A stretch of 64,000 bases of DNA from Trichoderma breve (Eukaryota > Ascomycota > Sordariomycetes > Hypocreales > Hypocreaceae): positions 3,162,001 through 3,226,000 of the forward strand of contig NC_079237.1 in assembly GCF_028502605.1 (NCBI RefSeq), in the 5' to 3' direction. Below the pieces are notes generated by a model that saw only the letters and a list, made by a program, of their open reading frames with translations, was not told the origin of the DNA and did no database searches. Numbering within the stretch: the first letter of the stretch is position 1; every line of letters starts with the position of its first letter. This document shows positions 15,037 to 52,809 of this stretch, piece after piece. Both the position numbers and the translations under genes were made by a program.

Positions 15037-18000
15037 TCAGTCTGCGCCGCCCTGCGCCAGCAACTTTACAATTGTCTCATATCCTTTCTCAGCCGCATAA
15101 GTTAGTGCCGTCCGTCCGTCCTTATCTGTTGCATTTATGTCTGCGCCACTTTGAACCAGCAGCTCCACGATTGCCTCATGCCCTCCAAAAGCCGCATGAA
15201 TCAGTGCCGTCCATCTGCGATAATCTTCTGTTCTTGCCTCTAAGTCTGCGCCTTTTTGGACTAGCAGCTCTACTACTGCCGCATGCCCATTTAAAGTCGC
15301 TAGCATTAGTGGTGTGTATCCCTCGTCATCCCTGGCATTCACGTCTGCGCCCTCTTCAGCCAGCAGCAACACAACTGCCTCATGTCCATTCTGAGCTGCG
15401 TGAGCTAGTGACGTGAGTACGGCAGTACCCTTTCTGTGTATGTCTGCGCCGTATTCAACCAGTAACTTTACGATTGCCTCACTCCCATGTATAGCTGCTA
15501 GTGTTAATGGCGTGTTTCCGTTATAATTCCTGCCGTTTAGATCAACTTTACCACCCTCAACCAGCAACTTCACGGCTGCTTCGTGCCCATTCTTGGCTGC
15601 CCATAACAGCGGCGTGAATTTTTTCCTATCCTTAGCGTTTGGGTCGACACGTTGATCTCCTAGCAATATCTGGACAGCATAACTATGTCCCATTTCCGAA
15701 GCGTGCGACAGAGGCGTCCGGTAATTTGCGTCTTGTGCGTTTGGAAATGCCCCCCAATCCATCAATTCTTTCATAGTCTTGATTCTTCCATTTCTCGCCG
15801 CTTGTGACAGTGCTGTTCTCGAATCATGGGCTGGGTCTTTGAAGTCCGGCTCTGCACCTAATTCAAGCATCGCAAGGACCACCTCTGTCCAGCCGTGCTT
15901 CGCCGCCAAGCCAAGAACCTTTCCTTTTTCTTTATCTGTCATTGGGATTGGCAGAGTGATGTAGAGTAAGGTTCCACTTAGATCATCTTCGGTCTGAGAA
16001 ATTTCGCTTGAATCATCTTCAGTATCATCGGTTTCATCACTTGAATCACCTATACCGTAAGAGTCTTCATCGGTATATTCATCGGTCGATTCATCTTTGT
16101 TCTCAGAGAACATATGTAGTCTGATGATACTGAGATCATTTCCATGCTGGACGACCCTTTTTGCAACATCATTGTAACGAGCAACAATTGCGTCATGAGC
16201 TGAAGGGCTCGGTGCTTGGCGGCTGGGTACCTGACAAGAGAGCCACTCAATACCACGCAAGCCGAATTCCTTCGTCTGATTATCTCGCATTGCCCACCTG
16301 TATAGCTCCCCTAATGCGATTGCTGCTTGTTGAGTGGGTTCGTCTTCGTGAAGCAGCTGGTCGTTTTGGCATTCATCTTTTCTTGGGTGAGGTTGAGACT
16401 TGTCACAAACCGCCCATGCCCATCGTAGCATCGTCTCTGCCTGCGCCCATTTGCCGGCCTTTCGTTGCTTGATTGCTATTCTCTTCGCTGCTACTACAGC
16501 GTTTTCTGTGGAAGACAACCTTAGTCGAGGTATCATCAGAGGCAAGATACACAGCAATGCATCTTCATTCGAGCCTAGCTGCGTTTCAGTGAACAATTTT
16601 ACCATCTCAGTCACCAGAGTATTCTCTAAGTGGAAAGACGGAATTTCTTGGATATCGATATCCCCGATATCATCCAAAATCTTGAGAATACTTGCGACGA
16701 ATGACCCAAACACTTCCTGGGCACACATAGATAAAAGAGTGCTGTCTGTATGAGCCGACATGACACTTAAGAGATCAGGGCTAGTGCCCCGTGACGTCTC
16801 TGTTGCGTGCCAAGCAAAGAATCGAATTTCCTTGCCCTGTTTATCGCCCAGTTTCCACTTGGTGATACCAGGGTCTCCTCGTTGGACGGAAGTAGGGTCA
16901 AGTTCGTATTTTGTAATAATGGGGATCTTGCCGCCGAGCCATATCTCCAGGTCAGTCGCTATATTTTTGTTGGTTGAAACGATGCGCTGCCTTGGGATTT
17001 CAGTAGCTCGGGATATAGTGAAATGACTTTGTGAGTCTGCTACCTCAACAGCTGGATCAGACTTCAATGACCAAACCCATAGTCCCAGAAGTCCTTCCAG
17101 CTCCAATTTGTTTTCAAGTTTCCAGGGAGTCGTGAGCTCTTCGCGCGTTAGTTTTAAATATACCGTATGCAGTATTGGTGGATCTTTGGAAGTACCACTT
17201 CGTTCCACGATTGCAACCTCGGAAGCAAAACTCCAGAACATGGACAGAGCATCTCTCCACTTGTCTCCGATTTCGGGGCTCTTCGAGAATATGGTGTTGA
17301 CTGCAGACTCAATGGCCAAAGCAAGGCAATGGGCAGTTTCTCGGACCTCAACCAATCTGACATCGAAATTCTCTGCGGAACCTGTGCCTTTTGTTTCAGT
17401 GTTTTGCGACTGGGTGAGTTGCGCGAGGCGAGTCCGGTAGGCTAATAATTTGGAAGCAACATTTAGCTCTCTAGAAGTTGGCAGGGCGTCTATAATTCCA
17501 TGTGTGTTCCTAGGCGTACCGCGGAATCTCCAAAGGAGACGTGGATAAGCTCGTGAATCCTGCGTTGGTGATGAATGCTTTGGCTCGCCTTGAAAGTCTT
17601 GTTCACCAAAACGTATGGCAAGCCAATCCAGCTCGTGCCCAACAACCTCGTCGGGGCACTGAGCAAGAAAGTTGTCCTCTGGTTTTAAGCGCTGCATGCG
17701 AAGCGCGGCTCGAGCGGCGCTCATGAGCATGATGGCTCCAAGCTGGGCCACAGATACTGCAGAATGGATGGCCCGCAGTCCAACAAACTGCATCACAAAG
17801 CCAGTGACAGAGATGCCAACGGCAGCCCACACCACAATCTGGGAAATCTTTGACTGGTTCTTCCACGAAGTGATGTACTCCTGCAGAGGTTCCATGTGGT
17901 CGCTGCAGCAAAAGGCGTCAAAGACTTGATCCCCAAGAACTTGACCCCCAGGCTGAACCCAATATAGAGCTTCTCTCGGAACATTCTTATCTCCGCTGTC

Positions 18001-18855
18001 TGGGTTTCTGCGAAATACTTGTTCTTTGGTGCTTTCACCGACGAGAAATGCACAAAGAAAAATGCCGCCACACAAAAGAAGTGTTCCAGTGATGGTGAGA
18101 GGGCACGCATACGATTCAGGATGACTGCCATCTTTCTCCCAGCGAAGGTAGTATGTCGTAAGGACTGCGAAGACTAAAACACCGGCTTGCAATACCATGC
18201 CAGTTATTGCGACTGTCAAGAAAATAAGAGGAGGTTTCCTCTTGATGCCCACGTTGAGAGAAAGGTTTGGAGAGAAATTTTGAGAAAACGCGTCAGACAT
18301 AGCCTCTTTGTTGTCTGGAGATCCTGGAGATTCCGGGGGCTGAATTCGAGTCCATTTCTTTGAATTTTTTTCGATAAATTCCTGAAATGTATATATTCCT
18401 GCTTTATCGTCTGTGAAGTTATGCTCGGGGTCGTATACAACCTCAAGAATCTTTGGCCGCCCAAAGACTCGCGCGATGCCGCCGTTGTTATAGAGCTCGC
18501 ACACATCTCGACTCGTAGAGGAGCACAGTTCTGCTTCGGCATTCCCTCCTCCTTCTTGTGCTCTGCCAATAAAGGCACGCAGTGACGGACTCCCGCACAC
18601 GCGAATCGCCGAAACGATGGCAGTCAGGATGCCCATCGGTGCCATTGCGAAAATGAAATAATCAATCGTAGCGATGCTTTCGCTGAGGTATTGCTTGGTG
18701 ATCTGCTCACCAAACAGGGATATAAATGGTGCCAGATCTGTCGCGAGTTTATTTGAGAAATCATCCCAGCCATCTGCACGGACAGCTGGGAGGGTGAGAA
18801 AGCCAAAGACGCAAGCTGTGAAGAACGTCTTCATATTGTACGTCAAGAACCGCAT
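15037..18855 (-). CDS. Membrane-anchored ankyrin-repeat protein (fungal, large)
   Basis: Single-exon frame of 1272 residues. The N-terminus has a hydrophobic signal-like segment; a second ATG at residue 8 would give an equally good signal. It is followed by several membrane segments: near 65-90, two or three between about 210 and 275, and one or two between about 335 and 390. A long soluble middle part has no domain I recognise. It ends in a Ser/Thr/Asp/Glu-rich acidic stretch (SSDETDDTEDDSSEIS) just before the ankyrin region. From about residue 945 to the end there are roughly ten ankyrin repeats with TPLxxAAxxGHEAxVxLLVExGAD pattern. The protein stops inside a repeat right after GGAD, and the sequence after the stop still reads like a repeat (see findings). 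Such proteins are common in fungal accessory gene sets; function unknown. Confidence 0.85.
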   Translation of the reverse strand: MRFLTYNMKTFFTACVFGFLTLPAVRADGWDDFSNKLATDLAPFISLFGEQITKQYLSESIATIDYFIFAMAPMGILTAIVSAIRVCGSPSLRAFIGRAQEGGGNAEAELCSSTSRDVCELYNNGGIARVFGRPKILEVVYDPEHNFTDDKAGIYTFQEFIEKNSKKWTRIQPPESPGSPDNKEAMSDAFSQNFSPNLSLNVGIKRKPPLIFLTVAITGMVLQAGVLVFAVLTTYYLRWEKDGSHPESYACPLTITGTLLLCGGIFLCAFLVGESTKEQVFRRNPDSGDKNVPREALYWVQPGGQVLGDQVFDAFCCSDHMEPLQEYITSWKNQSKISQIVVWAAVGISVTGFVMQFVGLRAIHSAVSVAQLGAIMLMSAARAALRMQRLKPEDNFLAQCPDEVVGHELDWLAIRFGEQDFQGEPKHSSPTQDSRAYPRLLWRFRGTPRNTHGIIDALPTSRELNVASKLLAYRTRLAQLTQSQNTETKGTGSAENFDVRLVEVRETAHCLALAIESAVNTIFSKSPEIGDKWRDALSMFWSFASEVAIVERSGTSKDPPILHTVYLKLTREELTTPWKLENKLELEGLLGLWVWSLKSDPAVEVADSQSHFTISRATEIPRQRIVSTNKNIATDLEIWLGGKIPIITKYELDPTSVQRGDPGITKWKLGDKQGKEIRFFAWHATETSRGTSPDLLSVMSAHTDSTLLSMCAQEVFGSFVASILKILDDIGDIDIQEIPSFHLENTLVTEMVKLFTETQLGSNEDALLCILPLMIPRLRLSSTENAVVAAKRIAIKQRKAGKWAQAETMLRWAWAVCDKSQPHPRKDECQNDQLLHEDEPTQQAAIALGELYRWAMRDNQTKEFGLRGIEWLSCQVPSRQAPSPSAHDAIVARYNDVAKRVVQHGNDLSIIRLHMFSENKDESTDEYTDEDSYGIGDSSDETDDTEDDSSEISQTEDDLSGTLLYITLPIPMTDKEKGKVLGLAAKHGWTEVVLAMLELGAEPDFKDPAHDSRTALSQAARNGRIKTMKELMDWGAFPNAQDANYRTPLSHASEMGHSYAVQILLGDQRVDPNAKDRKKFTPLLWAAKNGHEAAVKLLVEGGKVDLNGRNYNGNTPLTLAAIHGSEAIVKLLVEYGADIHRKGTAVLTSLAHAAQNGHEAVVLLLAEEGADVNARDDEGYTPLMLATLNGHAAVVELLVQKGADLEARTEDYRRWTALIHAAFGGHEAIVELLVQSGADINATDKDGRTALTYAAEKGYETIVKLLAQGGAD

Positions 18856-29422: not shown

Positions 29423-31226
29423 ATGGACAATAACTCTGTTCCCAACTCAGCCCAAGGTGCTGGGCTCCTGCAAAATGGCCCGTCCATATTGGTTAAACCA
29501 GCGGTGATCTTCATGCTCCTTCCAGTCGCGACTTATGTCTTCTGGAGCTTTGTTTCGTACCTAATCTCGCCATTGAAGAAGTATCCTGGGCCATTCTTAG
29601 CATGTAAGTGAATATGAGAGCATCTTAAGCTGAAAGAGGGTCGTATCAGTAACATGTTGTGCGATATTAAGCCTATACCAACTTCTACCGAATGTATTAT
29701 GCCTATCGAGGAAATATGCACCTCTTGACCAAGAAACTCCACGACAAGTACGGTCCGGTTGTTCGCATGGGCCCCAACTACATCGACGTTGACTACCCCT
29801 CATTGATTAAGACGTGCTTTGACTTTGGGGGGGTTTGGAGAAAGGTAAGTCTCGACATTGCATTCTATTAGAGTGGACATTGGTTAACGTTTAGCTGTCA
29901 TATCACAGACTGATTGGCATGGCGTCAGTGGAGCAATGGTTGAAGGCAAGCTCTACTACAACATCTTCTCAGAGTGTAATCCCGAAGAGCATGCTCGGAT
30001 TAAGAAGCCAATTGCAAAGTATTGGTCTGCTCCTGGTGTCGCGCCAATGGAGCCGCACGTTGATTCTGTGATCTCTACACTGTGCCGGGCACTTGATCAA
30101 CGGTTCGCTGGCGACGAGGACTTTGGAAAGACCTTTGACTTTGCTGAATGGATGCTATTCTGTAGGACACTGCCTATGCCATGTCGTTGGAATCAAGCTG
30201 ACTTGTCTAGTTGGAATGGATGCGGTCGCCAAGACTACATGGAGTGAAGCGGTCGGATATCTCGAGAAGGGACATGATTTCGATGGCACTCTGAACGTCT
30301 CGGACAGAGCCTACGACTATCTCGTCACGGTCGGCATGAACCCTATTTTCGACAAATTTCTCGACAAGAACCCGATTATGCGATTTGGCCCGCCGTCGTT
30401 TGGAACCGTCACTGGAATTTGCCTTGGGCACCTCATGGCGCGCATGAAGGGCGAAGACGGCCACGACCAATCCAAACCCGACTTCTTGGACCGCTATCTT
30501 GAAGCTCAGCAGCAGAACCCCGAAGTTGTCGACATCTACCGTATCCTCTCCTACATGCTCGTCAATGTTGCCGCCGGCGCCGACACCACTGCGGCGAGCT
30601 TGCGCTCCATCTTTTACCTCTCGCTGAAGCACCCTGCCGTCTTCCGCCGTCTGAGAGACGAGATTGTCAATGCCAAGTTTTCGCAGCTGCCAGTTCCCTA
30701 TGCCGAGTCCCGACAGCTTCCGTACCTGGAGGCTGTCTCCCGAGAGTGTTTCCGATACATGCCCGGCAACTGCTTCGCCCAGGAGCGTTACGTTCCATCT
30801 GGCGGTTTGGCGCTTCCTGATGGCTCCGTCGTGCCGGCCGGTACTGCTCTTGGATTCAATGCCTACGTGCTCCACAGAAACAAGGAGGTCTGGGGCGATG
30901 ATGCTGAAGAGTTCCGCCCCGAGCGCTGGTTGCAGGCCGACAATGAGACCGAGGAGGAATACAAGAACCGCATTCAACAATTGAACAATGTGGACTTGTC
31001 TTTCGGTGCTGGTTCGCGAAAGTGCATCGGCATGAACCTTGGAAAGATGGAGGTTAGCAAGACAGTGGCAACACTCATTACCCTCTTCGACTTTGAATTG
31101 GAAGACCCCAAGAAGGAATGGAAGGTCCACAACAGCTTGATTCCCAGGGCGTCTGAGATTATGATCAAGATGAAGAAGAGACCGGGTGCTGGTCAACAAA
31201 TCAGCGAAATGAGCAGCCACTACTAG
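29423..31226 (+). CDS. Cytochrome P450 monooxygenase (pisatin-demethylase-like group)
   Basis: Four exons: 29423-29603, 29672-29844, 29909-30161 and 30211-31226, 540 residues. A membrane anchor is formed by ILVKPAVIFMLLPVATYVFWSFVSYLI, followed by the Pro-rich hinge KKYPGPFLA. The I-helix oxygen-activation motif is AAGADTTAAS. The K-helix ExxR is ECFR in SRECFRYMPG, then the FRPERW segment, and the heme-thiolate loop FGAGSRKCIGMN holds the proximal Cys ligand. This is therefore an ER-bound heme monooxygenase with all catalytic marks. It lies 300 bp upstream of a Zn2Cys6 factor gene read in the same direction and within 9 kb of a RiPP precursor, so a tailoring role in that pathway is a reasonable inference but not proven. 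The second intron end (AAG at 29671) is the least certain boundary. Confidence 0.9.
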
Positions 31227-31525
31227 TGCCGCTGACTTACTAGGGAGATGGGGGTATCTGCAGATTCAACATTGTGTTAATAGCTTTGCTACAAGATTGA
31301 CTATACCAACTTAATATGTATTCTTCAACCTTTCATGTTAGTAATTGTCCACTAGCTAGTCATGTCATAACTCGTACCAATAGAAAGCGACGGCGTGACG
31401 GATGTTCTTTGTGAAATCTTAGTTGAATAGTAATCACCGCTCCAGTGAATCTTCGTCTTATAAGCCCGCATGTCCCCACGCCGCCGGTTATAAGTCCGCT
31501 CACCTTACATCCTCGCGCATGCACA

Positions 31526-33433
31526 ATGTCCACTTCCAACGAAAGCCCGTCACCACGGCCTCGAGCCGTGGCAAATCACAGCACCCTCGGGGTTTTGGCT
31601 TTGCGGTGGTCTTGTGCGACATGCCGCCAATCGAAACGCCGCTGCGATAAAATATACCCGAAATGCACACTCTGCGTTCAGTGAGTCTGCCCTTCACCTC
31701 CGCTGCTGCGGATGATGCGAGGATGCAGCAAATCAGTGTTTAGTAACACCTGTGTAGGAAGAATACTCCATGTAACTACCCAGGCCGTCGGAAAAGAGAG
31801 AAGCTGAAGAACCGCATAAAGGCGATTCTGCCAGTGGGAAAATCCATCGTCGACCCGCCTCCCGTTGTATTGGCTGAGAAGAAGCACGACGTGCGCCAGC
31901 TCTCGTTTCCTTCTGCCAGTTCCAGCTTCATTGCGGAGAGTTTTCTCGATCCCGAGGTCTTTTCCAAGGCGCAGTTGAAAGTGGTAAACGCCGATGTGGA
32001 GGTGACAGATGACATAGCCGAGTTGGTCGGGAGCGTGCTGGACATTCAGGCCACCTCTGCCAAGTTCTTTAAGTCGGTTCACATGTGGATGCCGATCATA
32101 TCGAAGCCTCATTTTTGTGCGAACCTGCTCAATCGGTTAACCTACAAGAGAGCTGAGTTGTTTCTGCTCGTGCTGTCTATGAAGTTAAGCTTCACACGAG
32201 TCAAAACCTGGAACACGCCATTGTACGAGACGGTGAAGCTATTCCAATTTAAAATTGAGGCTTCAGGGGTATTGTCAACTCTAGTTCTCCAGGCTTCTAT
32301 TCTCATCGCACTCTACGAGTTAGGACATGGCATCTACCCGGCGGCGTATCTCTCGGTAGGATCCTGTGCTCGGTACGCAACGGCCCTGGGTATTGAAAAG
32401 TCTATTCTTTCATCAAGCGCTGCGCAGGGCCAATGGATTGAAGAAGAAGAATGCCGCCGTATGTGGTGGGCGATTTTGGTTCTCGATAGGTATGTGACAT
32501 CGACTGTCAGGTTCCTGGAATTTGCCATTTCTGTGAGGGCAACAGCAAGATATTGATGCTATTTCTAGATATCTGAACTTGAGTAATCCTAAACGGCACC
32601 TTATTACTACAGATGCAGGCTTAGAGAGTTACTTGCCTGTAGATGATGAAGTGTGGGAATCCGGAGTGAGTAAACTGTGAACATTATTTCACATCATCTC
32701 ACAGGGGAACTTCTAACGTTATCCCGCAGGTACTCAATCCTGATCGTATTTATACTTTGGCAACAGCCAATAGCTACCACCTGGGGCTCTTTGCGCGATT
32801 TGCGCAGGCCGCACATCTCCTCAGCCAGGTTCTACATCATGTCTCTGAGGAGTCCAACGAGACTGCCCAGTTGCGACGCACAATATTTGCGCTAGTCAAC
32901 GTCTCTAATATCGAGGCATCTATGAGACGATTAGAATACTGCAGCCAATCAGCAGTCTGTTACGCGTAGGGCAGTTCTCAACCTCTTCATACTAATGCAT
33001 GTTTGACTAATGTAGTAATAGTGGTATTCTCGCGCTCGACTACTCGTCTTTTAGCAAGGGTATGTGTGTAAGTGACTCTGGTCAAAAGCTCTCCTCCGAG
33101 AGTGCTATCATTTCACAAGCAACATTAGACATGGCTTTGACCTTGATCCATGGTGATTCAGAACAGCTCTGTGATGTTGCCAGCCCCTTTCTTGTTCATT
33201 TGTTATACAAGGTAGCCTCAATGCACTTGAGGATAGCACATAAGTCTCAGACAAGGGGCGATCGAGAGAAAGTTGAGATCTTGAGAAAAAGCATGAAACT
33301 CGTCGGAAATCGATGGCTTTGCACTTGTAGGTGGCTGTTTGAAGATTCGTAGAAATTGCTTCCACTAACAGCTTTTATAGCCGCGTACCTCTCGCTTTTA
33401 GAGAAGCAAGAGATTCTGCTTGTGATGGAGTAA
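31526..33433 (+). CDS. Zn2Cys6 fungal transcription factor
   Basis: Six exons: 31526-31680, 31758-32489, 32569-32665, 32730-32965, 33016-33326 and 33381-33433; the frames join to 527 residues. The binuclear zinc cluster is C30-x2-C33-x6-C40-x6-C47-x2-C50-x6-C57, split by the first intron between Cys50 and Cys57, with the basic stretch RQSKRR between Cys33 and Cys40; PGRRKREKLKNR follows. The middle part resembles the fungal-specific regulatory domain, with ECRRMWWAILVLDRYLNL being the best-conserved piece (the family signature is C-R-x-x-W-W-x-x-x-x-x-D-R). Such proteins bind CGG half-sites and often control the cluster they sit in. Here the gene lies between the P450 and the three UstYa-type genes, which suggests a pathway-specific regulator. 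Confidence 0.88.
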
Positions 33434-34035: not shown

Positions 34036-34898
34036 TTATGAGTGATCGTGGCCTGAGGGCTCTGCCATCGTGTGATTGTGAGTCGCCTCGTGGCCATTGT
34101 TCTTCGTGTTTTTTGTCTTTAGCCATTCCGGAAACTCAACCCACCGATGCCTATATACCCAATCGGCCATCGCGTTATAGTCGCGACAAGTATGTACTTC
34201 GTCGAGAACAAATTCTTCCAGGTCGTTGGTTGTGACAAGTGTCAAATCTGGATGGCAAAGTAGTTGGGAGCGAACGTAGTCAAGGCAGTGGAGCATGTGC
34301 GTCTCGTCCCATGGTGGAGGTGTCTCAGACATGAGGTTTTGTCGGATTGCGTTCTATGATATCCAGTTAGATTAGACTACATAATAGAGAATTGTAAGAA
34401 ATAAGAACATACTAAACAGTGAAGGGCATGGAAGACGTCCACTTGATAAATACTCTGGGAAGGATCTGTTGGGGATTGCGCTGATTGTCTCAATCCTTGT
34501 TTCCGAGCCCATTCTGTATTCAATGATATCACGCCTCCGCTATCAAGAAGATCTCTCCAATATTTATCAGCATCATGTGAATCAGCCATATATTTGGAGC
34601 CATCTTGAAATTTCATAGAAGTATTATATGATCCGAGCTGTGACAAGCCATCGAGGGAAACATTTGACCCTACAGCCCGCCTCGTCTGATTCAACACTAT
34701 GAAGCCTGCGATGAGGAGAGCACATAAGATCGCTTCTAGGAGGAGGATTGAAGCATGTATGACATTGAATCTTCTGAATGACTGTTCTAGAAGACTTAGC
34801 CGTTTGTTTGTCTGTGACTGTACGTTTTCTCCAGTATCTGAATCATCGCCTTCAGTAAGTCGTTTGTATTCAGCGTCTGGTACCTTGGACATAAACAT
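34036..34898 (-). CDS. UstYa-type DUF3328 oxidase, copy 1
   Basis: Two exons, 34898-34413 and 34353-34036, 267 residues. The ATG at 34898 is the first in frame (the frame itself opens further upstream at a GTG). A short cytoplasmic N-terminus precedes one membrane helix (about 46-70, ILLLEAILCALLIAGFIVL). The lumenal part carries two HxxHC motifs: HALHC at about 157-161, just before the intron, and HMLHC at about 181-185, followed by HPD. Paired HxxHC motifs define the DUF3328/UstYa family, whose studied members cyclise ribosomal peptides oxidatively in ustiloxin and asperipin pathways. The C-terminus WVEFPEWLKTK followed by a His-rich tail is in family style. Second of four consecutive genes leading to the repeat precursor at 38.8 kb counting the regulator; coded on the opposite strand to the precursor. 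Confidence 0.9.
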
Positions 34899-35326
34899 GT
34901 TGTTGTTTCCCTCATCAATCACCTCATATTCCTAGTGCTCTCAAAACTTTAAAAAAATTATCTAACTCTGAGGAGAAGTGTGGTCAGAGAGCATCTATCA
35001 AGTCCCAAGAAGGGTGGAGATTGAGTGATATCACACTCCATCAGCCACCGAATGCAACGTACCAGGGAGGGATGCATGATTCATGACTAGGCCAAGCGAG
35101 GCATATTGCTCAGAGTTAGTCTAGCCGGATTCTGCATATAAGATCTTGGTCTGAATCCTGTGGAGGCGAGTTAACGAAGGAGGGGGATCTGCAGTAGTAG
35201 GTCGACATGCACGTATCCAGCTTGTTCGGTACAACGCTCAGTTTTCAGTTAGAGCGAAAGTCATACATGATACAGGTTTGTATTATCTGGTTTTATCTTC
35301 TTAGGTCGTACAAAATGTGTATGCTA
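34899..35326. other. Short promoter region of UstYa copy 1 / 3' end of copy 2
   Basis: About 0.43 kb separating two genes read in the same direction on the minus strand. It must contain the promoter of copy 1. No other feature was recognised. Confidence 0.45.
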
Positions 35327-36049
35327 TTAAGCACAGATGGGATATTTGACAAAAATCTTGGTTCCAGAGTCCTTCATGCCACCCGGATCACCACCAATCA
35401 TCTTAACACAGTGATTTGTATGGTGGAAATTTGCCGTATACGAGTCAATCTTTCGGCTCGCATCTAAAGCTGCCCTGTGAATTCTTTTCCAAACGTACAT
35501 GCAGTGAACAACATGCCAGTCAAACGTCGTAGTAAAGTGACCATAGTCACCAAGATGAAGCTCATCCATGGTGAGATTTCTGCCATTGATTTCATATGGC
35601 CAATTGCGACCATCATACATGAGCTTTTCGTCTTCCATGTCATCATCCGTAAGGCAATCTTGGGGAAGCCAAGAGTGCAGCACGATGCTGTATCGGCAGC
35701 CGAGGGCTTGCGCGTCGGCGGGAGAGTTACCACAGTCGCCGTGAGACCAACTTAATGGGAGACCAGTTTTTTCATCAGCACCTTCGCGCATTTCGGGAAA
35801 AGGTCGATTTGTCCTTGTGTTGTGCTTATTGGCGATGATCATTTGCCATAGACCAAGTGCCAGCACTACAGTCAATGCGCCGAGTAAAAATGATGAGATG
35901 AGAGGAATCAGGCGCCAACGAGGCCGTGCAGCTGAAGTGGCTTGGTATAACAAAGCTTCTTCACTGTCATTGCCGTCAATTTGAGCATACTCTTGCTTGG
36001 ATGACTTTGTCTTGGTGAATAGAGAACTCTCGCGAAGTCGGTCCATCAT
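35327..36049 (-). CDS. UstYa-type DUF3328 oxidase, copy 2 (intronless)
   Basis: Single exon, 240 residues from the ATG at 36049. An ATG at 36130 in the same frame would add 27 hydrophobic residues; I prefer the inner start because family members begin with a short hydrophilic tail before a single membrane helix, here LIPLISSFLLGALTVVLALGLWQMII. The lumenal part contains YSIVLHSWLPQDCLTD, the DGRNWPYE segment, and two HxxHC motifs, HVVHC (in FDWHVVHCMYVW) and HTNHC, 33 residues apart. This branch differs from copies 1 and 3 in spacing and in lacking the LDVFHQLHC context, resembling the longer-spaced subgroup of the family. Probably an oxidative peptide-modifying enzyme of the secretory pathway. 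Confidence 0.87.
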   Translation of the reverse strand: MMDRLRESSLFTKTKSSKQEYAQIDGNDSEEALLYQATSAARPRWRLIPLISSFLLGALTVVLALGLWQMIIANKHNTRTNRPFPEMREGADEKTGLPLSWSHGDCGNSPADAQALGCRYSIVLHSWLPQDCLTDDDMEDEKLMYDGRNWPYEINGRNLTMDELHLGDYGHFTTTFDWHVVHCMYVWKRIHRAALDASRKIDSYTANFHHTNHCVKMIGGDPGGMKDSGTKIFVKYPICA

Positions 36050-36130
36050 GATCAAGTCGTTGCGGCGGCAAACGCATGTGCAAGTGAGGAAATGGATGAT
36101 GAAAATGGAGTATAACCCCAGAGTTCTCAT

Positions 36131-36966
36131 AGAACTTCGGACCTACGCCGAGACATAAAGGCGTCGGCTCTTTGTCACGCACGCTCGCCAAGATGATGAG
36201 TTTAGGATATGCTTCAACTGGAAATATCGGCCCTTGGTAACATGGATCAAGTCCACCTGTGTATTCGCATACCATTGTGTGGGGTTGAATCCTTCAACAG
36301 ACGGAGAGCTCGGGACCGTTGAGATACCCGAGATTCATTCCTTTTCCGGTAGGTGAAAGCTGAATTGCCGTAAGGCTAGACGGATTTGCGTGCTGACAAG
36401 GGTAATGGGGCAAAGACTAGCCATGCATATAACATTACGCTAAGGATGTTATCTCTTTAAGCTTAGCAATCGTTCCTATTTACAGGTACTTTTGAGAAAG
36501 CGATGGGCGGATAGACTACGTTACACGTCCGAAAATCTGTTCACGGGACTCAGATTGCGTTGTTTTGATCAAGCTGGGATTGCAGATCCAATCCTGCGCC
36601 CCCAAATATCCGTTTAGTCGGTGAAAAGGAAGTTAGAAGCGTGTAGATCATATTGAACATGATGCAATAAAAAGAGAGTCTCTTTGTACCTTCCCCATGG
36701 AGTTATGAGATGGGATATGATATCTCAAGGTCATTGCAATGACGTCCAGTTAGAATGAAGGATTGGCCTATCGGTCTCCTGTAATGTTGCCACTTGGTGT
36801 GTCAAAGTTAAAGTACATTGGTGGAAAAAAGATTCTGTTTATAGTGTTGCGATTTGTAGAATTGTTCGTTATGATACATATAATAGATCTGGAATTTATT
36901 CTTTTATCGTGTATCTACTTGCAGGAACTACGAAAATGACCATGCTATGTGATTCTAACGATACGT
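36131..36966. other. Promoter region of UstYa copy 2 / 3' side of copy 3
   Basis: About 0.8 kb between two minus-strand genes. It includes an inverted pair CTCGGG (36309-36314) and CCCGAG (36327-36332) separated by 12 bases, with CGG-GA-CCG at 36311-36318 inside, which is the sort of site a Zn2Cys6 dimer could bind. No gene seen. Confidence 0.45.
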
Positions 36967-37879
36967 CTAATTTGATTGCCGAATTGGAGCTCCCTCAACC
37001 TTATGAAACTGGTCAAAAGTCTCGTCCAATTTATGCTGAGCAGCCCATTCTCTTATTTTCTCAAAATTCTTGCATGTATGCGTTGTCCGTAGATTACCAA
37101 ACATCTTTTGCTTTGGCTCACTCCACTCCCAGTAGATAGTGCCTACGTCTGATGCGCACTGAATTGACTGCCTAAGCTGGTCGTAGCAGTGTTCCAGATG
37201 ATAGACATTGTCCTCGCCCTCTTCTGTGCCAGGTGTTAGATCAATTTTGAAAATGTCCGGATAGACAATCTTGCGCATGAAATTCAGGCAGTGAAGTTGG
37301 TGGAAGACGTCTAGTTCAACCATGTATTGTTTCGGGTCGTGAGCGGTTGGTGTTGTAGCATTGGGTAGTCGAGCTGCCATCGCCGCTGGAATCTGGGAAA
37401 TGCCAATCTCTTCAAGTTACAATGGGTTAACATGTTTTTCTCGTCTACATGGTTTCGTCATGGGAATTTGATTACCATTGAAAAGACTGTTCCACCTCTC
37501 ATTGACTTCCTCAGAGTATCCCTGGTAGGCAGATCTATCACCATGTAGACCCCCAGTGAAGACTACTGTCTTGTACTCAATTGCAGATTCAGCTGGAGCT
37601 ATTGACAAAGTTAGGATATCTGTCCGTCAACTTGTACGTTGGAGATAGTTACTCACAGTAAACTGCATTTAATATTCTTAGCTGTGCGAATTTCCGATAT
37701 GAGATTGCCCATGTTGATATTAGTGCCAAGAGTAGCACAACGTTGAACGCAACGGAATATGGGAGTAGTTTCGCCCGTGACACGTTTTTTGAAGGTCGTT
37801 CGTTGTGGCTTCTGTCTTTCTCATCATCACCTAGTAAATGTTCCTCGTCATGAAACTCTTCAGAGGCCACGGACGCCAT
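36967..37879 (-). CDS. UstYa-type DUF3328 oxidase, copy 3
   Basis: Three exons: 37879-37657, 37598-37476 and 37409-36967, 262 residues. The ATG at 37879 is the first in frame. The N-terminal cytoplasmic tail (DEEHLLGDDEKD) precedes one membrane helix, LLPYSVAFNVVLLLALISTWAI. The second exon encodes SPAESAIEYKTVVFTGG and YQGYSEEVNERWNSLF, which match the conserved YSPA...EY and Y-x-G-x-x-x-E-V-x-x-x-W pattern of UstYa proteins. The third exon carries HQLHC (about 152-156, in LDVFHQLHCLN) and HLEHC (about 186-190), then YDQLRQSIQC. It is the most canonical UstYa-like copy. The last intron ends at an AAG acceptor that I chose because it alone keeps the frame. It is divergent from the precursor gene across a 0.94 kb shared upstream region. 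Confidence 0.9.
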
Positions 37880-38818
37880 ATTGGTTGTTTGTCCTATGCG
37901 TAATATCACTTGGCGACTAAATGAGAGGTGAATAGCCAGGAAACACTTGAACTCCACCGTCTGTAGATTTCATTCACTGGCCCTTTGAGTAAAAAAAGTT
38001 AGCAGCTCGTCATGTTCTCATGACTAGAACGACACAGACGTTTTCAGGCTGGACAGCCAAAGATAGCCAATGGCAAGGATCTAGGTTACATTGGATTGGA
38101 AGCATGATACTAAATTCTTGCTATGAGCATAATTGCCCTTGTTTACTTGATAGACAACATTTTGATCATCCTTGTACTTGCATAACTGAGTCTCACCCAG
38201 ATTTGGTGATGCGGAGAAGTTGAACTAGCCCCCATGCACATCTAAGCGAAGGATTCGAGGTGGGCGCTAATCATGCAAGGTTACTTTTGGTATAGGATAT
38301 CATTTCTCCCGGAAAACCCGTACGCTGAGCTCAAATGCACGTCCTCTTACAAGTTTTGACAATCATTGGCCCAAAGAGTTCAAGAGAATGACGGAGGAGA
38401 ACCAAGTTTGCTGCAGAAGAAGAGGTCTGTGTGGGAACGATGCAACGTATCATAAGAATACACTTGCTTGGTCCGGAAAGAATTTCCATCTTTGAGCCAG
38501 TATTGGTCAGTAAATGATACTGAAATAGATACTCTTACTAAATGGAAATTGATGGAAGTTATCCGTAGAGAGATGCTATGAGATACAAGGTGGGCTCTCA
38601 TTCACATTCACCCATGTCCTAAGTAAAAGATAAGCGAGGGCAAATAAGTCCGCATACAAAGGTACTAAAAAGACCGGCAGCTTGAATTTAATATAGCTAT
38701 TCATGTATCCTACAAAACTCGGGCTCAACCTTGAACATCTCGCCTGTAAATTTTCTACACGAAAAGCAAATTTACAACTTGACGAGTCTGCCTTGCATTA
38801 CTCCACTCTTTCTACAAT
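37880..38818. promoter_or_regulatory. Bidirectional promoter of UstYa copy 3 and the RiPP precursor
   Basis: About 0.94 kb between divergent start codons. A CGG-N5-CCG inverted triplet lies at 38310-38320 and a TTAATATA-like element about 120 bp before the precursor ATG. A shared regulator acting on both genes would fit, but no motif could be tested. Confidence 0.5.
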
Positions 38819-39385
38819 ATGAAGATCTCCCAGCTTCTATCTTTGGGCCTGGCCCTTCTGGGCGCTGTCGACGCTGCTCCAGTTGAACAGCGTGGTACTG
38901 CTGTTGATCCTACGAACAATCAAGCTGGATGGGGAAGACGGGGTGATACTAGCGTCGACCTGGCTGATAACGAAGCTGGTTGGGGCAAACGCGGCACTGC
39001 GGTTGATCCTACAAACAACCAAGCTGGCTGGGGCAGACGAGGTACCGCTGTTGACCCTACGAACAACCAGGCGGGCTGGGGAAGACGAGGCGACACTTCT
39101 GTAGACCTCGCTGACAATGAAGCTGGCTGGGGCAAACGAGGTGATACTTCTGTGGACCTCGCTGATAATGAAGCTGGCTGGGGTAAACGAGGTGACACTT
39201 CTGTAGACCTCGCTGATAACGAAGCTGGTTGGGGGAAACGCGACACTGCCGTTGATCCCACGAATAACCAAGCCGGCTGGGGCAAGCGAGGTACCGCAGT
39301 TGACCCTACCAACAACCAGGCAGGATGGGGAAGACGTGGTACGAATGTTGACCCTACAAACAATCAGGCTGGCTGGGGCAGATAA
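38819..39385 (+). CDS. Kex2-processed repeat precursor peptide, dikaritin-type RiPP precursor
   Basis: Single exon, 188 residues. Residues 1-19 are a signal peptide (MKISQLLSLGLALLGAVDA) and 20-25 a short propeptide (APVEQR). Residues 26-188 are ten tandem units. Six are type A, consensus GTAVDPTNNQAGWG (units 1, 3, 4, 8, 9, 10), and four are type B, GDTSVDLADNEAGWG (units 2, 5, 6, 7). Units 1-9 end in RR or KR, the Kex2 signal; unit 10 ends in a single R and stop. There is no Cys, Tyr or Phe in the repeats. Secretory leader plus identical Kex2-bounded units next to UstYa genes is the signature of dikaritin precursors. The product would be short Trp-containing peptides, possibly cyclised. An alpha-pheromone-like precursor has a similar outline, but the three UstYa genes beside it argue for RiPP biosynthesis. 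Confidence 0.9.
   Translation: MKISQLLSLGLALLGAVDAAPVEQRGTAVDPTNNQAGWGRRGDTSVDLADNEAGWGKRGTAVDPTNNQAGWGRRGTAVDPTNNQAGWGRRGDTSVDLADNEAGWGKRGDTSVDLADNEAGWGKRGDTSVDLADNEAGWGKRDTAVDPTNNQAGWGKRGTAVDPTNNQAGWGRRGTNVDPTNNQAGWGR
38894..39382 (+). repeat. Ten tandem 45-51 bp coding repeats of the RiPP precursor
   Basis: Unit borders in residues: 26-41, 42-58, 59-74, 75-90, 91-107, 108-124, 125-141, 142-157, 158-173 and 174-188. Type A units are 48 bp (the last 45 bp) and type B units 51 bp. Copies differ mostly at third codon positions; the amino-acid changes are Gly to Asp at residue 142, Ala to Asn at residue 176 and Lys/Arg choice at the cleavage sites. Confidence 0.95.
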
Positions 39386-49257: not shown

Positions 49258-50087
49258 ATGCTTTTGTGCAATGTTTTTTCGTTTGCGGTTTTTGCTACGG
49301 CTGCATATGCCAGCGTCCAAGTTCAGCAGTGGATGCCGCCTGGACCAGATGATTCGCGAGGGCCGTGCCCAATGCTGAATACTTTGGCAAACCATGGCTA
49401 TCTGTAAGGCTCTCTATTACTTGATGCAAGGATGATCCAATGACTAACTGACTGTCCTAAAGTCCTCATAGTGGCCGCCATATTTCGCCTTCACAGATAG
49501 AAAACGCCTTCACAAACTTCCTCAATATCGAAGCAGGATTTGCAGCCGCTGCCAAGGACTTTGCCAAAGCATGGGGTAATGAGACTTTCGACCTTGATGA
49601 CCTCAACACACCAGACATACTGCAGCACATTGCATCCCTCACTCGAGATGATTACACGTCTCGTAATCCTCATTTGAAGCCAAACTTCCTCCGAATTGAG
49701 CGCCTCATGTCTGATAGCCCTACATCATTCATTAACATTGATTCTATTGCCAAAACCCGACTACGTGTGGAATCAGAGTCAATACCAAACGCGCTTTCCA
49801 AAAACCAGATGAATGCGGCTCTGTTTGAAGCCGCAATGGTCCTTGTCATGATGTCAGACCACAGCCCTGATGCTGAGTCTAACCCTCCTCTATCGGCGTA
49901 TCAGGGCCCTAAAGATCGCATTCGAGCATGGTTTGAGCAGGAAAGATTTCCTACGGAATTTGGATGGCAGCCATCAGCAAGGACTATCAAGTTGGCTGAC
50001 CTGAATCCTGCAATTGACGGTATTATTAAGTCTATGCAGAGACAGGATAACAGCGGGCGTGTTGCGCAAAAGTTTTCTGAAGATTAA
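49258..50087 (+). CDS. Small secreted heme-thiolate peroxidase (chloroperoxidase/peroxygenase-like)
   Basis: Two exons, 49258-49403 and 49463-50087, 256 residues. A signal peptide (MLLCNVFSFAVFATAAYAS) is followed by the proximal motif GPCPMLNTLANHGYLPHSGR, where the Cys of PCP ligates heme. The intron splits the Leu codon of GYLP. The C-terminal GWQPSARTIKLADL resembles the family's usual ending. In short peroxygenases an EHD motif (Mg-binding, near the heme propionate) precedes ASLTR; here the matching stretch is LQHIASLTRDD, so Glu and Asp are replaced by Gln and Ile. A later acid-base Glu may be that in LFEAAMVLVM. The enzyme may have altered or lost activity. Confidence 0.88.
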
Positions 50088-50268: not shown

Positions 50269-51615
50269 CTATGCTTTCCATGGGCTTACACTGTATGCTG
50301 CCCTCCATCTATTCAACAACTCCCGGTCAAAACTGACAAGAACCTCAAGATCGCCGTTGGGAAGTCTGGGAAACACAACCGGATACCGCTTAGTCTTGAA
50401 AGTCGGCAGTCTTACAACTTCACAGTGTCCTAGTTCAGTGCCCCAATCGAGCTCATAAACACCTTCATCGGCCCAAGAGACAATGGAGACGCTTGCGGGC
50501 TGCTCGCAGAGTTTGAGTCCTGTGACGTCCTCTTGAGCAGATAGATGATTGACAATGGTATTCATCTTGTTTTCATCAATAGCATTGACGCTTTGGCGAA
50601 CGGCAGCTGCAACATTTGCGATTGCTGATATAGAATATGTCTCTCCACTTGATCTTCCTATATCCATGAGATCGACTTTCTTAGCGGTCACCAGCGACAC
50701 TCCAAAAGCGGCCCCAAGGTAGTTCTTTGGTAAAGGTGGGTTGTAACGACTGCGACAGTTGACTGCAATACGCATAAAGCAGACATCGTTGGCAGTATCT
50801 TTATCATCATCTGAAGATTCAGAAAAAATAGCAGAGCCCCAAAGGAGAGCAGTTAATATGTCGCTAGTTGATACCCAAGAGGTCCCATCGGGCAAGTGCT
50901 TGCTAATTTCGGCCTTGAGACTTGTTAAAGATTCTGCAGAGTATCTGAAAAAAGTTGTTTCAATCTCCACGGGCTTTGACGGCTGGCTGGACGGGCTACT
51001 GTCTTCTTTGTGAAGGAGAAGCGGCGCATCAGCTGGAGCATGACGAGAGCTGTTGACAATTGCTGTGCGGTCCAGCCACAGTTGGCTAAATTGAATATCT
51101 TCAGAAGACCCAGTCCTACAATGCGACGCCCATATTTTCAACAGCGAGCCAAAAGCGGTAATATCGGCTGTTGAGTGGTTCAGACTGACACTGAGCAAAC
51201 AACCTCCCTTCACCAGAGATAAGACGGCGCGAAAGACCGGACTGGGCGACGTATTCGCGGGATTGAGGTCAGCAAAAAATAGATCCAGTCCATCAAATAG
51301 CGAAGGTCGAAAACCTCCCGCCTTCAGGTCGTTATAATCGACCGCCGTGGCGAGATCGTTGACACGAAATAAATCGCCTAATGAGTCACACGGTGGACTC
51401 AACGCAACGGAACCTTTAGGATGGGTCCTGGCCACTATCCTAGAGGCGAGATATGGAACATCTGCCAAAGTACTTGCGAGGCCATCTCGGAGGACTTCGT
51501 ATATTCGAGGATTTGTAGACGGAAAGCAGAGGATTTGGCTAATGAATGACCGCGGCATCACCCACTCGAGTGGAGATAGCTGGCTTAGCTCTTGCGGTGA
51601 TAGTGTTTCCGCCAT
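50269..51615 (-). CDS. Acyltransferase, BAHD/trichothecene 3-O-acetyltransferase-like
   Basis: Single exon, 448 residues, ATG at 51615. The catalytic HxxxD is HSTAD (in LSVSLNHSTADITAFG), where His is the general base in this superfamily and the Asp is structural. The second landmark, DFGWG in plant members, appears as LDWGTELGHCEVVRLP near the C-terminus. The N-terminal SPLEWVMPRSFISQILCFPST and the ADVPYLASRIV segment fit the fungal transferase family that moves acyl groups from CoA to hydroxyls or amines of secondary metabolites. The gene is divergent from an FMN reductase gene over a 0.6 kb shared promoter. No biosynthetic backbone enzyme is nearby. Confidence 0.88.
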   Translation of the reverse strand: MAETLSPQELSQLSPLEWVMPRSFISQILCFPSTNPRIYEVLRDGLASTLADVPYLASRIVARTHPKGSVALSPPCDSLGDLFRVNDLATAVDYNDLKAGGFRPSLFDGLDLFFADLNPANTSPSPVFRAVLSLVKGGCLLSVSLNHSTADITAFGSLLKIWASHCRTGSSEDIQFSQLWLDRTAIVNSSRHAPADAPLLLHKEDSSPSSQPSKPVEIETTFFRYSAESLTSLKAEISKHLPDGTSWVSTSDILTALLWGSAIFSESSDDDKDTANDVCFMRIAVNCRSRYNPPLPKNYLGAAFGVSLVTAKKVDLMDIGRSSGETYSISAIANVAAAVRQSVNAIDENKMNTIVNHLSAQEDVTGLKLCEQPASVSIVSWADEGVYELDWGTELGHCEVVRLPTFKTKRYPVVFPRLPNGDLEVLVSFDRELLNRWRAAYSVSPWKA

Positions 51616-52212
51616 GGTTTGCTGGAGCTGGCGTAAGGAGGAATGCCAAGAGGCTTGTTATCTGAGATGTGTTATAAGAGGGATTAAAACGATTTAGAAT
51701 GTCGACGCTATGCGAAGGATTATACTAGAGGTCCTTGTCAGCGATCGGCAGTTGTGTTAGTTGTAAAGCGCTCACGCCATCTGCCGAAAGCTACGGGCAT
51801 TGCACCTTTGGCTTGCATGTAAGCACAACTCGATATAAGTAAAATTGTAAGAGTATAACTCTTAAATCTAATTCGCTAGTCTAAATAAATCACTGTGTCA
51901 TTACTCCATAAATATCCCCGTATAGAGCACAGTTGCAAGAGTTTTCATCCTGCGTTCCGCAATAGCCGCTATCAGGCAGCGGCCATTAGGCAATACGCGA
52001 AGGCCGAGCAAAAGACCGCCGAGCCAAATGTCTAGTCACCGCGAAACTCGTTTTAGTAAGCGGCGGTTACCCTTTTGTAAGTCATTCATCCAATGATATT
52101 AAAGCTCCTGTTGGTAGCCTTCGGGTTCTGGTATATATTTACTGGGCAGCGCCTTCAGAAAATTGCTCTGAACCGACGCTCTTTTCTCTCTTCATTCAAT
52201 TAGACAATCACC
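51616..52212. promoter_or_regulatory. Bidirectional promoter, acyltransferase / FMN reductase
   Basis: About 0.6 kb between divergent start codons. A TATATTT-like element lies near 52132-52138, some 75 bp upstream of the reductase ATG. Nothing else was recognised. Confidence 0.5.
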
Positions 52213-52809
52213 ATGGCTGCTGCCAAGTCTATCGCTGTTGTCATCAGCAGTACTCGCCCTCAGCGCATTAACCCCTTCGTTGCTGGTTATGTCGCTTCTG
52301 TCATTAACTCTATTCCCCAGACTACTGCAAAGGTTGAATTACTCGATTTGGCAACACTCAATCTTCCTCTCTTCAACGAGCCTCTAGTTCCAGGCGAGGT
52401 TCCGGCTGATGATCCCACGCCTCATTATCATTACGAATATACCCGCGCCTGGTCAGCTCTTGTTCGTAAATATGATGGATTCATCTTTGTTACGCCACAA
52501 TACAACTGGTCTATCCCCGCGAGCTTGAAGAATGCTTTGGACTACGTATTTCATGAGTGGAATGGGAAGCCTGCTGCGATTGTGACATATGGATTCAGAG
52601 GCGGTGTTAAAGCTGAACCCCATCTACGCGAAATCCTGAACGGACTGCGAATGGTTACCGTTGAACCGACCTTAGCACTCAAAATCGTTAAAGGGGGGCC
52701 AGGAGAGAGGGAAAAGCTGATGGAAGAGACTTGGAAGGAAGATGGAGCGGACGAAAAGATAGCAACATTATTTGATAGTTTGTTAAGTCATTTTGAAGCA
52801 AAAAATTAA
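52213..52809 (+). CDS. NADPH-dependent FMN reductase (flavodoxin-like)
   Basis: Single exon, 198 residues, ATG at 52213 in CACCATGG context. The flavin phosphate-binding loop is SSTRPQRINPFVAGYV near residue 12, followed by the second FMN-contact motif TPQYNWSIPASLKNALDYVFHEWNGKPAAIVTYGFRGG. These match the NADPH-dependent FMN reductase family, which reduces FMN, quinones or azo compounds. It has no signal peptide, so it is cytosolic. It shares its upstream region with the acyltransferase, suggesting co-expression. Confidence 0.93.
   Translation: MAAAKSIAVVISSTRPQRINPFVAGYVASVINSIPQTTAKVELLDLATLNLPLFNEPLVPGEVPADDPTPHYHYEYTRAWSALVRKYDGFIFVTPQYNWSIPASLKNALDYVFHEWNGKPAAIVTYGFRGGVKAEPHLREILNGLRMVTVEPTLALKIVKGGPGEREKLMEETWKEDGADEKIATLFDSLLSHFEAKN

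Follow-up and report, generated by a model that had tools for sequence, protein, structure and literature searches.

What does the locus at positions 34036 to 39385 of a 64,000-nucleotide stretch of the Trichoderma breve genome (hereafter the window) make, and by what chemistry? The earlier note on this DNA had described it as a compact cluster of the dikaritin type for a ribosomally synthesized and post-translationally modified peptide (RiPP), in which a precursor of repeated units adjoins three genes for UstYa/DUF3328 proteins; the coordinates proved exact and the layout was confirmed, with a correction to the family assignment of one of the three genes. The analysis presented here supports a genuine, conserved cluster of known, dikaritin-type architecture. 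The best explanation overall, to which we assign a probability of roughly 0.6, is a dikaritin-type Trichoderma peptide pathway in which the C-terminal core of each unit would be oxidized, most likely in a reaction centred on Trp. Dikaritins are peptides derived from Kex2-processed repeat proteins (KEPs) and cyclised by UstYa homologues; five had been reported by 2022 (PMC10512285; here and below, papers are cited for the portions of their text that were available), compared with thousands of candidate precursors (PMC7329392). Given this disparity, the present cluster, which is small, conserved and well delimited and for which exact masses can be predicted, makes a good target, and the points worth following are its Trp-only core and the companion family represented by the middle enzyme gene, here denoted B.

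The precursor and its constrained units

The precursor gene (Table 1) encodes a protein with a signal-like start, MKISQLLSLGLALLGAVDA before AP, which was read by eye and was not flagged by a 19-residue hydropathy scan at a threshold of 1.6. The start is followed by ten peptide units; KR or RR follows nine of these, and the last is followed by a single R and the stop codon, so that the protein displays the repeated units with intervening KR, RR or KK sites that are one mark of a KEP, a signal peptide for secretion being another. The units had been predicted to be ten near-identical Kex2-bounded segments. The number stands, with the dibasic site present in nine, but near-identity is confined to within each of two types, namely type I (units 1, 3, 4, 8, 9 and 10; ...TAVDPTNNQAGWG and variants, ending VDPTNNQAGWG) and type II (units 2, 5, 6 and 7; GDTSVDLADNEAGWG, ending VDLADNEAGWG). 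The repeat detector scored the real precursor at 8, and among 20,000 shuffles of its residues the score was zero in 19,999 and 2 in one. Tandem Repeats Finder, at its threshold, reported the precursor array as the only array in the window, and the KEP detector found no further match in the rest of it. Comparison of the precursor with the Pfam and NCBIfam profiles yielded no match above cut-off.

Over the last 13 residues, all ten units agree at the T, V, D, N, A, G, W and G positions, and at each of these except Trp the codons differ. The proportions of synonymous (pS) and non-synonymous (pN) differences are 0.708 and 0.025 among the type I units (pN/pS 0.03) and 0.486 and 0.034 among the type II units (pN/pS 0.07), with a pN/pS of 0.14 across all ten. 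Silent differences thus dominate, indicating that the copies accumulated silent changes while strong constraint preserved the peptide. None of the ten units contains Y, F, H, M or C; because Trp is the sole redox-active side chain, a Trp-centred reaction is the likeliest. Without Tyr or Phe, the units cannot undergo, as such, the Tyr-ether chemistry known from ustiloxin, asperipin and phomopsin. The ustiloxin/asperipin-class logic originally ascribed to the locus is supported for the Kex2 repeat precursor and the UstYa genes and does not extend to this chemistry as such.

A protein search with the precursor, a check that the earlier note had proposed (E up to 0.01, with scoring limited to the 7,999 candidates that had the most words in common with the query), detected three homologues of 263, 138 and 139 amino acids (E 2.4e-18 to 1.9e-5), with units of the form ...DILYNNQAGWGK(K)R. 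The sequence N-x-A-G-W-G is present in all 24 units of the four precursors, the residue between N and A being Q in 18, E in four and A in two. In the homologues, Tyr directly precedes this core, at a position occupied by Thr or Ala in the window units; the constant aromatic residue of the four precursors is Trp, not Tyr. The earlier note had not recognized the unit ending in AGWG from any described product, and neither the longer forms of the unit strings nor the locus tags of the homologues were found in the searched literature; nor is NNxAGWG among the core motifs named in the available text of PMC6339444. As far as this literature shows, the core is undescribed. The string EAGWG does occur, by accident, in three papers that according to their titles concern Bacillus, ant venom and a shark antibody; the longer strings are absent there.

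Three oxidase-like genes and a companion family

The three enzyme genes, denoted A, B and C, each encode one hydrophobic segment near the N-terminus and two HxxHC motifs (HALHC and HMLHC in A, HQLHC and HLEHC in C; for B, see Table 1). The prediction of a single membrane helix and a motif pair in each product agrees with sequence scans of all three and with AlphaFold models of B and C (mean pLDDT 80.8 and 78.8, respectively), which combine a single long N-terminal helix with a domain that carries each HxxHC on a helix (residues 175-194 and 207-218 in B, 149-163 and 178-199 in C). The assignment of all three to UstYa/DUF3328 holds for A (whose two exons score 31.1 and 44.8 bits against PF11807) and C (119 bits for the final exon) but not for B, which at 13.7 bits lies below the curated cut-off of 25. 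Thus, as in dikaritin clusters, UstYa/DUF3328 genes, namely A and C, adjoin the precursor. The spliced C product is 100% identical over the full 262 residues to the annotated T. breve protein T069G_09875 (P0004), and the first exon of A has one partial relative inside this genome. The double HXXHC is the suspected active site of such proteins (PMC12048977), and UstY enzymes are described as dicopper cross-linking oxidases (PMC12186524). Neither a PDB sequence search with C nor a profile search with B gave a match; the single match of the C profile to the PDB (E 0.19) was judged to be due to chance.

A search of the genome (38.5 Mb on nine contigs, denoted by the prefix C, with the window at C6:3162001-3226000) with B identified seven places, B included. 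These B-like genes, one of which, on C5, is in two pieces from both of which the motifs were taken, have in common CGx[ST]xx[ED]A....C, W[LMV][PA]..C and two HxxHC. All seven fall below the PF11807 cut-off, the best of the six relatives reaching 19.1 bits, and among 75 B homologues from protein searches only one (P0130) carries a precomputed PF11807 match. Five of the six other B-like genes have a UstYa exon match no more than 10 kb away (no more than 5 kb in four cases), with a binomial P of 7.7e-10 for 10 kb that assumes random places and ignores possible kinship or side-by-side origin of the B-like and UstYa genes. For these five, the distance to a KEP is 1.3 to 12.6 kb, and the sixth, at C6:886952, stands alone. 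Because none of the B-like genes passes the Pfam cut-off, DUF3328-based surveys may overlook some of the machinery, perhaps including a subunit that is required. The family could serve as a second sequence marker for such clusters, given that six of its seven genes lie in clusters of UstYa genes and a repeat precursor; conversely, six of the nine groups with a clear KEP have a B-like gene. RiPP clusters have been mined with a UstY-like profile, and domainless enzymes are mentioned in that work (PMC11109268).

We tentatively read B as a remote relative of UstYa. In profile alignment of B with UstYa, the hhalign probability was a weak 6% with close B homologues. With 74 B sequences it was 12% in local and 22% in global mode, and a set of ten diverse B sequences raised it to 65% and 61%, respectively; the local alignments pair both HxxHC motifs. 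No description of the family was found in the searched literature, by searches that were not keyed to the motif and that miss most subscription journals. Among viral contigs, six stretches fitted the pattern and none was judged a relative; among GTDB contigs there were 22, one of which, from Cutibacterium (29% over residues 177-239, E 9e-5), was judged spurious.

The C and B genes form a conserved pair that occurs together in other fungi. Among 90 homologues of C and the 75 of B, 20 C/B pairs agree in the size of the longest contig given for them (including contigs of 1,741, 2,329 and 3,889 bases). As a control, the sizes were displaced up or down by 1 to 50 bases (14 offsets), and every offset produced at most 1 coincidence. 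Six pairs have consecutive locus tags: Cladobotryum PT974_07037/07036, Conoideocrella QQS21_012431/012432, Fusarium heterosporum FHETE_973/974, Fusarium sp. F66182_8878/8879, Cordyceps militaris CCM_06856/06857 and Lecanicillium NLG97_g4517/g4516. Many matches have no size partner, for which short contigs and clustering at 90% are possible but uncertain reasons. One precursor homologue (P0001) and one B homologue (P0161) agree in a contig size of 45,688 bases.

The layout elsewhere in the genome

The combination of a repeat precursor and UstYa genes is not rare in this genome. The PF11807 exon matches number at least 49 and represent about 34 genes in 18 groups (by our own grouping). In a KEP scan of the window and of 28 loci around the 17 groups outside it (flanks of about 2.4 to 12.5 kb), a clear KEP was found in nine of the 18 groups, the window included, and a doubtful one in a further group; absences are soft in view of the short flanks and of precursors that introns may interrupt. 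The eight further clusters (L010-L027) each have their own, different unit (Table 1), and the units that were read are Tyr-free in three of the nine clear clusters, those of the window, C2:7062 and C2:7095. The doubtful precursor, near a UstYa gene (L033, C4:258997-259518), has three units like TDGNFLVERGGGCGYYG. Three rows of the KEP detector were discarded, one as a lysine-rich frame (C6:892986) and two as off-frame readings (C2:4239375 and C2:7095387).

Comparison with known systems

The window cluster shares with those of ustiloxin, phomopsin, asperipin-2a, victorin and epichloecyclin a repeat precursor with Kex2 sites, here putatively secreted, beside UstYa/DUF3328 genes. It differs from them in that the core has Trp and neither Tyr nor Phe, in the lack of a tyrosinase or an S41 peptidase gene nearby, and in that B, among its three oxidase-like genes, does not reach the Pfam cut-off. 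Matches to tyrosinase (PF00264) occur in the whole genome only at C4:756 kb, and the single match to the S41 peptidase (PF03572) is at C2:6893 kb, with none of either near the window cluster on C6. The ustiloxin/phomopsin subgroup is characterized by the core motif EDYXI, with Tyr (PMC6339444), and by tyrosinase and S41 peptidase genes; the window cluster has neither the core Tyr nor these genes.

Epichloe, like Trichoderma, belongs to the Hypocreales. Its gig cluster, with gigA, kexB, a DUF3328 gene and one hypothetical gene (PMC7317419), is similarly small and combines a repeat precursor with a DUF3328 gene and an unexplained gene, but has a Tyr-containing core and its own kexin gene. In a survey of 7,878 KEPs, DUF3328 genes were nearby in 22%, and Y was present in 65.6% of the respective repeats (PMC7329392). 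The same survey describes a W-containing type, P-3, with a DUF3328 gene nearby, so W-containing candidates as such are not new; P-3, which has W and P, and the window units, with W near DUF3328, can be likened by description only. The plant lyciumin-type burpitide cyclases, which are copper-dependent and join the Trp indole N to carbon (PMC12186524), offer a parallel in mode of action only, being BURP-domain enzymes. A paper on Trichoderma RiPPs (PMC7099791) details, in its available text, a different cluster, in T. reesei.

The proposed pathway and its alternatives

Under the dikaritin-type explanation, the precursor would enter the secretory route, where Kex2 would cut after KR or RR and a carboxypeptidase would trim the basic residues, releasing peptides of 14-15 residues that end in N-x-A-G-W-G. 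A and C, as UstYa-family proteins, and the UstYa-like B would each be anchored by one helix and active in the lumen, and the conserved C-terminal core would be oxidized by C, probably together with B. A cross-link may then form between the Trp indole and an Asn, Gln/Glu or Ala residue close to it, each such bond removing 2H. We infer secretion, Kex2 cutting, membrane topology and copper-oxidase chemistry from the protein families, and likewise a cross-linked product. Oxidative tailoring of the unit peptide in some form appears quite probable, and a Trp cross-link specifically somewhat short of an even prospect; if real, a Trp-only core would widen the known chemistry of the DUF3328 copper oxidases. 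The computed [M+H]+ values are 1387.624 for linear GTAVDPTNNQAGWG (1385.608 at -2H, 1383.592 at -4H) and 1506.634 for linear GDTSVDLADNEAGWG (1504.619 and 1502.603); for the trimmed cores, the linear and -2H values are 746.322 and 744.306 (NNQAGWG) and 748.290 and 746.274 (DNEAGWG).

The genes, the motifs, the constraint on the units and the conservation of NxAGWG and of C with B are shown directly. Several points weigh against the dikaritin-type explanation. Equal contig size is not proof of a single contig; matched by size, a B partner exists for just one of the three precursor homologues and a C partner for none of them, and homologues of A were sought in this genome only. No Trp-cross-linked dikaritin was found in the available parts of the searched literature, and W-containing repeats are not more frequent next to DUF3328 genes than elsewhere (20.5% vs 24.5%; PMC7329392). 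A more specific proposal, that C and B work as a copper-oxidase pair in cross-linking the invariant Trp, with B-like proteins as a general second UstYa subunit missed by DUF3328 mining, is speculative and on present evidence rather doubtful.

Compatible with the dikaritin-type pathway is a larger cluster, in which the cytochrome P450 and Zn2Cys6 regulator genes at 29.9-33.4 kb would belong to the system and the P450 would modify the peptide further. The domain matches of both genes (Table 1), the recurrence of zinc-finger regulators in phomopsin-like clusters (PMC6514808) and the action of a P450 in ustiloxin biosynthesis (PMC12048977) are in line with this extension; given that both kinds of genes are commonplace in fungal genomes, we consider it a tentative possibility at best. 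The oxidases might instead tailor the peptide without forming a ring, by desaturation or hydroxylation of residues, to give a linear modified product: in the phomopsin pathway, desaturation and cyclisation both depend on UstYa homologues (PMC10512285), Tyr, which ether cross-links use, is missing from the units, and three oxidase-like genes per short peptide leave room for several reactions. The invariant Trp would then need another cause for its conservation, and the dikaritins reported in the available parts of the searched literature are all cyclic, so that tailoring of this kind seems unlikely. To our knowledge, the unit resembles no known pheromone, and an unmodified linear signal or cell-wall peptide, with the adjoining UstYa genes serving another purpose, is highly improbable in view of the recurrence of clear repeat precursors in half of the UstYa groups and the equal-sized contigs of P0001 and P0161, even though numerous KEP products are linear peptides with minimal modification (PMC9769878; PMC7329392).

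Genomic neighbourhood

The features of the locus and of the related loci are collected in Table 1. The upstream region between C and the precursor has no k-mers in common with other upstream regions beyond those found in shuffles. The frame at 29888-30244, upstream of the P450 match, has no Pfam match, and the downstream neighbour of the precursor is a dynamin-like GTPase gene from 39934.

Table 1. Coordinates of the window genes, the B-like genes and the further clusters of UstYa genes and repeat precursors
Feature	Position	Strand	Description
Precursor gene	38819-39385	+	188-aa open reading frame
Ten peptide units	38894-39382	+	six ending NNQAGWG, four ending DNEAGWG
Gene A	34036-34898	-	UstYa-family, 267 aa; splice model with one intron, exons 34898-34413, 34353-34036
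Gene B	35327-36046	-	UstYa-like companion, 239 aa, single exon; HVVHC, HTNHC
Gene C	36967-37879	-	UstYa-family, 262 aa; two introns, exons 37879-37657, 37598-37476, 37409-36967
Upstream region common to C and precursor	37880-38818		939 bp, intergenic; genes divergently transcribed
Possible member, cytochrome P450	29888-31226 (start uncertain)	+	PF00067, 147 bits on 30072-31223
Possible member, Zn2Cys6/Fungal_trans regulator	31445-33400 (end approximate)	+	Zn_clus 23.2 bits, Fungal_trans 49.2 bits
B-like gene	L011:4049-4708		
B-like gene	L014:6629-7573		
B-like gene	L017:5393-6184		
B-like gene	L019:3251-3970		
B-like gene	L020:6052-7116		
B-like gene	L028:6953-7672		
Further cluster	C2:4236-4240 kb		unit at C2:4239, DTQSTDGVANYEW/DTQSTDGVASYEW
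Further cluster	C2:7062-7067 kb		unit at C2:7062, ...DDEFGSWSD
Further cluster	C2:7095-7099 kb		unit at C2:7095, GAGDEAWKEANLG
Further cluster	C3:3504-3524 kb		unit at C3:3504, YNIPWTKNYGEYDE
Further cluster	C5:3827-3837 kb		unit at C5:3829, YEGDDEGDGDRKGEK
Further cluster	C5:4081-4087 kb		unit at C5:4081, DKLQNLFYVPAGAEGESPE
Further cluster	C6:3310-3320 kb		unit at C6:3312, EDTVVPDKQHYD
Further cluster	C6:4045-4053 kb		unit at C6:4050, TNDYPKYGKFGEFEAVNNE

Elsewhere in the window, the minus strand at 15040-18855 holds an uninterrupted frame of 1,272 residues whose C-terminal part contains many ankyrin repeats. Matches to Peroxidase_2 (49461-50084), a Transferase/TRI-like acyltransferase (50272-51657) and an FMN reductase (52204-52806) stand side by side and possibly represent another metabolite cluster.

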